Source of the DNA: Collinsella sp. AK_207A
GTDB taxonomy: Bacteria > Actinomycetota > Coriobacteriia > Coriobacteriales > Coriobacteriaceae
Assembly (NCBI RefSeq): GCF_902501965.1
Contig: NZ_CABWID010000014.1
Coordinates: 1 to 64,000 of the forward strand
DNA length: 64,000 nt
Reading direction: 5' to 3'
A model generated the notes under the pieces. That model worked only from the letters and a program-made list of their open reading frames with translations, was not told the origin of the DNA and did not search any database. The first letter of the stretch is position 1. Every line of letters begins with the position of its first letter. Position numbers and translations under genes: made by a program. Below are positions 759-895 of the stretch, piece after piece.

Positions 759-836
759 ATGCTGCAGGCCACCATGGCAATGATGCGAATGCTTTGCTCT
801 CGGCCGTGCTGCATGGACCGGTTCGCTCGCGCCTAG
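759..836 (+). CDS. Met/Cys-rich leader peptide of the metY attenuator (25 aa)
   Basis: The short frame encodes MLQATMAMMRMLCSRPCCMD followed by RFARA and a TAG. Six of 25 residues are Met and three are Cys. It has an ideal ribosome site, AAAGGAG at 747-753, five bases before the ATG. Four Met codons cluster at 774-791 and a Cys-Cys pair lies at 807-812. It sits between a good promoter and an intrinsic terminator in front of a Met/Cys-assembly enzyme, the classic arrangement of an amino-acid attenuator. The coding frame and ribosome site are seen directly; stalling on Met codons is inferred from the codon content. I know of no described family with this sequence. Confidence 0.75.
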   Translation: MLQATMAMMRMLCSRPCCMDRFARA

Positions 837-895
837 GCGCGCTTCGAATCCCCTAACTTGAGCAGCGTGGCCGGGAGACCCCCGGCTTTTTTCTT
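799..895 (+). promoter_or_regulatory. Transcription attenuator: antiterminator 799-812:862-875 versus terminator 870-886
   Basis: Within the leader RNA, 799-812 (inside the Ser-Arg-Pro-Cys-Cys codons) is complementary to 862-875 over 14 consecutive positions, including three G-U wobbles (800:874, 806:868 and 807:867). That pairing takes up the whole 5' arm of the terminator (870-875). A shorter alternative, 764-770 with 802-809 (7 pairs, one bulged base), could act as an anti-antiterminator. A ribosome held at the Met cluster (774-791) would leave 799-812 free and favour read-through. A ribosome held at the Cys codons would cover it and favour termination. Pairings are read from sequence; the switching logic is inferred. 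Confidence 0.65.
870..895 (+). terminator. Intrinsic terminator in the metY leader
   Basis: GCCGGG (870-875) pairs perfectly with CCCGGC (881-886) around the loop AGACC, followed directly by six T (887-892), then CTT. It lies between the leader peptide stop (836) and the metY ATG (938), so it must be overridden for metY transcription. Confidence 0.75.

Follow-up and report, generated by a model that had tools for sequence, protein, structure and literature searches.

A probable ribosome-mediated attenuator with methionine control codons upstream of metY in Collinsella

The region upstream of metY

The window, by which we mean the whole 64,000-nucleotide stretch of Collinsella sp. AK_207A DNA that was analysed, encodes near its start an O-acetylhomoserine/O-acetylserine sulfhydrylase (MetY), whose sequence matches PF01053 and scores 614.9 bits against TIGR01326 (cut-off 495.1). 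A small HIRAN-domain protein (PF08797; 278-610) is encoded directly upstream of the metY promoter. The elements that precede and include metY are as follows.

686-714, + strand: sigma-70-type promoter, TTGACA-17 nt-TAAAGT, matching the consensus at 10 of 12 positions (shuffled sequences: 0.1 expected)
717-738, + strand: imperfect inverted repeat CAACCAACGTGTTAAGTAGGTT directly 3′ of the -10 box, candidate operator (its sequence and the sites of relatives)
747-753, + strand: Shine-Dalgarno-like site of the leader ORF (AAAGGAG) in the AAAGGAGCC region; AGGAG-type sites in relatives
757-770, + strand: arm 1 of the putative protector hairpin, overlapping the leader start codon (folding and partner swapping)
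759-836, + strand: leader peptide ORF, MLQATMAMMRMLCSRPCCMDRFARA and stop codon (translation; frame, start and R-M core kept in relatives)
786-791, + strand: core codon pair Arg(CGA)-Met(ATG), proposed stall point (conservation in relatives)
797-816, + strand: arm 2, with 797-812 as the antiterminator side (with arm 3) and 802-816 as the protector side (with arm 1)
862-877, + strand: arm 3, which closes the antiterminator helix on its 3′ side and overlaps the terminator's 5′ side (pairing, covariation and folding)
869-893, + strand: intrinsic terminator, stem 869-875:881-887, loop of 5, T-run 888-893 (hairpin search and folding)
938-2248, + strand: metY, 436 amino acids

Much of this layout had been proposed in the original prediction from the sequence of this one locus, and it has stood up well. 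The promoter with its TTGACA box and the near-ideal ribosome site ahead of the leader start are present, translation confirmed a 25-codon leader with six Met (the start counted) and three Cys codons, and the intrinsic terminator, then placed at 870-895, comprises a stem at 869-887 followed by the T-run.

Alternative RNA structures in the leader

The antiterminator, predicted as 14 pairs (799-812:862-875), proved slightly longer, with 16 continuous pairs between 797-812 and 862-877. The segment 796-880 folds with -44.3 kcal/mol (z = -3.8), a stability equalled in 0 of 200 shuffles; the antiterminator duplex reaches -31.7 compared with -22.1 ± 2.8 when the downstream sequence is shuffled (1 of 400 as good), and the terminator fold has a z-score of -2.1.

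A weaker pairing of 764-770 with 802-809, predicted to oppose the antiterminator, is likewise present and forms part of a larger hairpin, 757-770:802-816, in which 757-762 pairs with 811-816 in addition. By itself this protector hairpin does not fall below shuffles in the window (z = -0.6) and comparative support was therefore needed; across leaders, the 1:2 pairing is better with own than with swapped partners (P = 0.004). Moderately supported by such sequence comparisons, the protector would be the weakest link of the mechanism. The leader stop lies about 25-35 nt 5′ of arm 3, so that a ribosome at the stop leaves arm 2 uncovered, unlike in trp.

Conservation of the leader in Coriobacteriia

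Comparison with relatives, a check chosen beforehand, revealed conservation of both the leader frame and the alternative pairings across genera, with compensatory changes at arm 2 and arm 3. Of the 32 same-genus loci that have this metY (the window included), 30 retain the leader frame and the R-M core upstream of it, and two same-genus genomes with this metY, G040 and G039, have no such leader there. Orthologous Collinsella metY genes (79-90% identity) are preceded by R-M core leaders, such as MNCLPRRMPGSCLRPSA in the C. aerofaciens group and MQLTAMFMMRMPSSRP.., MQFTLMSMMRMPSSRP.., MTARTLMMMRMPSSRP.., MRMLRMPSSRLP.. and MCQTERMHSSRLP.. in other Collinsella. In other Coriobacteriia, where metY is 75-89% identical, the leaders include MTTTTMMMCMRMLSSRAP.., ..TQMRCMMAGRMMCSRAF.., MDCQMCRMCQRMPASRA.., ..SNRFMMWCRMPYSRM.. 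and ..TLMCWCMRLPFSWA.., among others. Several Coriobacteriia genera with metY were examined and have no such leader. The leader screen found none at a metY paralog in G000 (45% identical) or at that paralog's counterparts elsewhere in the genus. The leader peptides matched no NCBIfam or Pfam model.

Throughout the Coriobacteriia leaders CGA is always the first codon of the core, the sequence CTCYCGG (or CTCCTG) lies 5 nt past the next codon, and a complementary CCGGGAG-type arm precedes the gene. A pattern joining the core with arms 2 and 3 at long spacing was found in 12 of 25 Coriobacteriia genomes with 0 control matches, all but one at metY; such two-arm patterns were used in place of the looser CGNATGN5CTCYCGG, which in 298 Coriobacteriia genomes gave mostly chance matches. 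Two Coriobacteriia genomes carry a second copy of the leader. One copy, with the control region RMMCSRMCC, precedes an ABC ATPase of MetN-like type (TIGR02314 is its best NCBIfam match, below cut-off); the other, with MMMMCCCRMPNSR, precedes an MFS transporter. Both are extreme cases of Met/Cys enrichment.

Two individual loci deserve mention. The metY of Slackia isoflavoniconvertens (L020 / L193) is 89% identical to the Collinsella enzyme despite the different family, and its leader is the shortest (MRHTKRMPNSR); gene and leader were probably acquired by transfer. At L237 the core reads CGA-CTG (Arg-Leu) instead of CGA-ATG, and the CTCCTGGG:CCCAGGAG pairing is kept by a compensatory change.

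Covariation of the antiterminator and the distribution of terminators

Arm 2 pairs with its own downstream region at a mean of -27.7 kcal/mol, compared with -22.4 kcal/mol for swapped regions, in a control that repeated the choice of arm 3 (0 of 20000 permutations). Arm 3 was picked as the best complement or by a CGGGAG anchor, and by hand for L229. Among 18 distinct arm pairs, 96.9% of cells are in standard pairs and 18 cells have changed on both sides. The covariation score of arms 2 and 3 is 0.434 compared with 0.212 in shuffles (0 of 500), a control from which the arm 3 choice step was absent; slid registers score 0.03-0.17. In the own-versus-swapped set the C. aerofaciens arms were matched to coding sequence by accident, and their local CTCCTG:CAGGAG pairing was used in the later test.

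Intrinsic terminators were found in about half of the distinct related leaders. Arm 3 forms the 5′ side of such a terminator in the window and in L194, L195, L236, L253, L034, L191, L172, L171 and L176, and by eye a terminator overlaps arm 3 in L237 and L188. Among the Collinsella examined, a clear intrinsic terminator occurs only in the window's species. The leaders of L109, L110, L112, L114 and C. aerofaciens retain the ORF and the 2:3 helix and have no T-run hairpin at arm 3; some other output device must therefore serve in these Collinsella.

Control codons and the CGA-ATG core

The proposal that Met and Cys act as control codons is supported by codon usage, with a correction. In 19 leaders that lack NFRxG (a peptide motif described below), 26% of codons from the start to the core specify Met or Cys; the share is 9.5% past the core and 5.6% in the two alternative frames (P = 5e-13). 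In the leaders of L229, L193 and C. aerofaciens, Met/Cys codons ahead of the core are few or absent. In the window leader, the Met codons at 774, 780, 783 and 789 lie 5′ of arm 2. Cys17, Cys18 and Met19 fall within arm 2, where stalling would be of no help to read-through, and their identity is probably set by pairing. The well-placed control codons are Met6, Met8, Met9 and Met11, with Cys13 as a further candidate, and sensing would depend mainly on the Met codons upstream of arm 2.

The first codon of the core merits separate consideration. The genome's tRNA-Arg genes have the anticodons ACG, CCG, TCT (UCU) and CCT (CCU) only; a tRNA-Arg with the TCG (UCG) anticodon was not found in the genome, so CGA is decoded by an inosine tRNA. 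CGA accounts for 13% of Arg codons in the window. When the class-wide search was left open to other Arg codons, the real leaders all had CGA and the chance matches mostly other codons. According to an assay in the his leader of Salmonella, ribosomes take longer over CGA than over CGU or CGC (PMC4046918). These observations suggest that CGA may act as a built-in pause element of the leader core.

A wider family of leaders in Clostridia and Treponema

On sequence grounds the leader is a member of a wider CGA-ATG core family, which takes it beyond the single-sequence view of the original prediction. Among 60 metY loci outside Collinsella, sampled with metY as the sole criterion, 30 carry a leader whose end lies at or close to NFRxG(R/V)M, in Clostridia and Treponema forms. 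The residues N, F/Y, R, G, R/V and M are conserved while synonymous codons vary freely, with one exception: the Arg preceding Met is CGA in 24 of 24 such leaders in the metY-sampled set (40 of 40 in a larger, pattern-derived set), whereas the Arg at -4, three codons earlier, uses all six codons. An SRA..MAG segment in some Clostridia peptides was rejected as peptide conservation, being explained by arm 2/arm 3 pairing.

The genes downstream of NFRxG(R/V)M leaders are mostly metY, but also encode NlpA/MetQ-type lipoproteins (PF03180), cystine-type ABC components (best matches below cut-off), a cystathionine gamma-synthase/lyase-like enzyme, a YeiH-type protein, a GST-domain protein and a LanC-like protein. 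In Treponema and relatives (L028, L038, L039, L050, L056, L058), Val (GTC/GTG) stands before Met instead of Arg(CGA), poly-Cys often follows, and no terminator is obvious. A further locus, L057, has two leaders in tandem ahead of a single metY, at a distance of about 400 nt: first a Met-rich ORF (MNKLYSENLNMAMWMVMYMCAMYMRF..), which has a terminator of its own, and next MQYYFQRLVRANFRFGRM, ending at its stop codon.

The window leader shares with this family a CGA-ATG core before an arm upstream of a sulfur amino acid gene; the NFRxG peptide is absent, and MAMMRM is found in its stead. In four loci, L171, L172 (with the intermediate-type leader NFRFGRMCRSRAENMAG), L188 and L191, the NFRxG(R/V)M peptide occurs together with arms 2 and 3 of the Collinsella kind, and these loci thereby link the two leader forms. 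A tentative reading, which we consider possible without favouring it, is that NFRxG(R/V)M leaders constitute a new class of arrest peptide sensing sulfur amino acid supply at Arg(CGA)-Met(ATG), and that the Collinsella attenuator is a descendant in which runs of Met/Cys codons have replaced the arrest peptide. If true, codon counting and nascent-peptide sensing would be swappable front ends of one switch.

A model of attenuation and alternative explanations

The locus combines the hallmarks of an attenuator, namely a ribosome site with a short ORF of conserved frame, control codons enriched ahead of arm 2, a covarying antiterminator and an intrinsic terminator. Taken together, the evidence makes it probable that the metY leader is a ribosome-mediated transcription attenuator that responds to shortage of Met, and in relatives also of Cys. 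From this arrangement we infer that the leader is translated, that ribosomes stall on it, that Met is the signal (joined by Cys in relatives) and in which order the arms fold. With ample Met-tRNA, the ribosome would traverse the leader and arm 2 would refold on arm 1; with the protector formed, arm 3 would be free for the terminator and most transcripts would end near 890. The same outcome is expected of a ribosome at the stop codon (834-836), where 1:2 would close and 3:4 terminate. When Met-tRNA is short, the ribosome would pause at the Met codons 5′ of arm 2, chiefly at 786-791 (P site CGA, A site ATG), CGA having slowed it right before the sensing codon by virtue of its decoding by inosine-tRNA-Arg. 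A ribosome stalled in this position presumably covers roughly 771-803, if a standard footprint is assumed. Situated within the loop of hairpin 757-816, it would keep 1:2 from closing and leave 804-812 free for 862-870; arms 2 and 3 would pair, the terminator would be blocked and metY transcribed. Features that count against this model are the missing clear terminator in the other Collinsella examined, the moderate support for the protector, the placement of the stop codon, which differs from trp, and the scarcity of Met/Cys codons ahead of the core in a few leaders.

An unlikely alternative is a nascent-peptide sensor, in which a small molecule (Met, SAM, homocysteine or Cys) triggers the Arg-Met stall, rather than the counting of charged tRNA, and the Collinsella form is derived; nascent-peptide sensing is known from TnaC, which senses Trp. 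Such a sensor would account for the conserved peptide with freely varying synonymous codons at half of the metY loci sampled outside Collinsella, and for the four linking loci, which have peptide, arms 2 and 3 and terminator with one internal Met before arm 2. However, NFRxG is missing from the window leader and most Coriobacteriia leaders, whose Met/Cys codon runs suit codon sensing, and the codon-specificity of CGA points to decoding speed. It is less probable still that leader translation acts through Rho-dependent termination or metY translation, with the hairpin at 869-893 playing a minor part. The Collinsella leaders that keep the ORF and the 2:3 helix without an intrinsic terminator would fit such a mode of action, as would the short NFRxGRM leaders, in which no terminator is visible, but the overlap of terminator and arm 3 is just what an attenuator requires, both in the window and in about ten further leaders.

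Control by a DNA-binding regulator of the Rrf2/CymR type at 717-738 alone, with the leader ORF a product of chance and the hairpin a leftover terminator, is very improbable in view of the cross-genus conservation of reading frame, core codons and covarying pairs. An Rrf2-type gene (PF02082) does lie divergently beside metY in leader-less Coriobacteriia, together with ACCTAC/GTAGGT-like sites, and the window promoter carries a related inverted repeat, which may be an operator resembling the ACCTAC..GTAGGT sites at the metY genes of relatives. The repeat by the metY promoter has the form AACC..GTAGGTT; the loci in this comparison were the window, L224, L233, L234 and L238. Coexistence is possible, and leader and Rrf2-type repressor may be alternative or double controls.

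If it operates as proposed here, Met (and Cys) attenuation of this kind would be widespread among common gut bacteria. Whether inosine-adenosine decoding serves purposefully to make ribosomes pause can be tested directly on the invariant CGA-ATG pair, and NFRxG(R/V)M is a testable candidate for nascent-chain sensing of sulfur amino acids.

Relation to known regulatory systems

Methionine control in Gram-positive bacteria is usually ascribed to SAM riboswitches, T-boxes and repressors. The original prediction had set the leader apart from the first two, and indeed neither the window leader nor 20 related loci gave an Rfam match. Terminator control of Gram-positive methionine genes is shared with SAM riboswitches and Met T-boxes; the window has a translated ORF instead. 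In the comparative work of Seliverstov et al. (2005; PMC1262725), methionine operons of Actinobacteria are reported to lack conserved RNA structures upstream. As the original prediction had supposed, no description of this leader and no counterpart in Coriobacteriia emerged from a literature search that had subscription papers outside its scope; nor were the leader peptide strings, or an experimentally described attenuator with Met (or Cys) specificity, found in the literature searched.

The closest report is metL of Streptomyces lividans, a predicted Met attenuator before metNIQ (MSTTSDRTPATEATTTPGARCMCRRMCAF, ending CMCRRMCAF; PMC8079986). Like the window leader, it is an actinobacterial Met/Cys-rich leader with R-R-M-C near its end, in this case before a methionine transporter. 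Unlike the window leader, it is reported as leaderless and without a typical terminator, and no arm 2/arm 3 is reported (PMC8079986); the likeness is confined to the peptide end. When 296 Actinomycetota genomes were searched for leaders resembling metL, four matches with one mismatch were obtained, none of them leader-like before a methionine gene. Mycobacterial cysteine leader ORFs (PMC1262725; see also Canestrari et al. 2020) also place sulfur amino acid genes behind a short Cys-codon ORF, and some NFRxGRM leaders end in poly-Cys. The mycobacterial leaders have Cys runs near the stop, are leaderless and lack a conserved terminator, whereas the window has Met control codons and a terminator; its ORF contains one CysCys pair, within arm 2, and a ribosome site, and so falls outside the polycysteine type.

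The kind of control, ribosome-mediated attenuation, is already known, while a Met/Cys leader with a CGA-ATG core appears undescribed. The trp, his, leu and thr attenuators (e.g. PMC1183508) have in common with the window a short translated ORF, control codons, mutually exclusive protector, antiterminator and terminator arms, and a cognate gene downstream. The window differs in its Met codons (Cys in relatives), in the conserved CGA-ATG core and in a stop codon past arm 2, an arm that must then be silenced by the 1:2 pairing forming again. Its relatives, moreover, carry a conserved nascent peptide; the NFRxG(R/V)M leaders resemble TnaC-type arrest peptides in peptide-level conservation that ends at a fixed residue, whereas the window leader is without that peptide.
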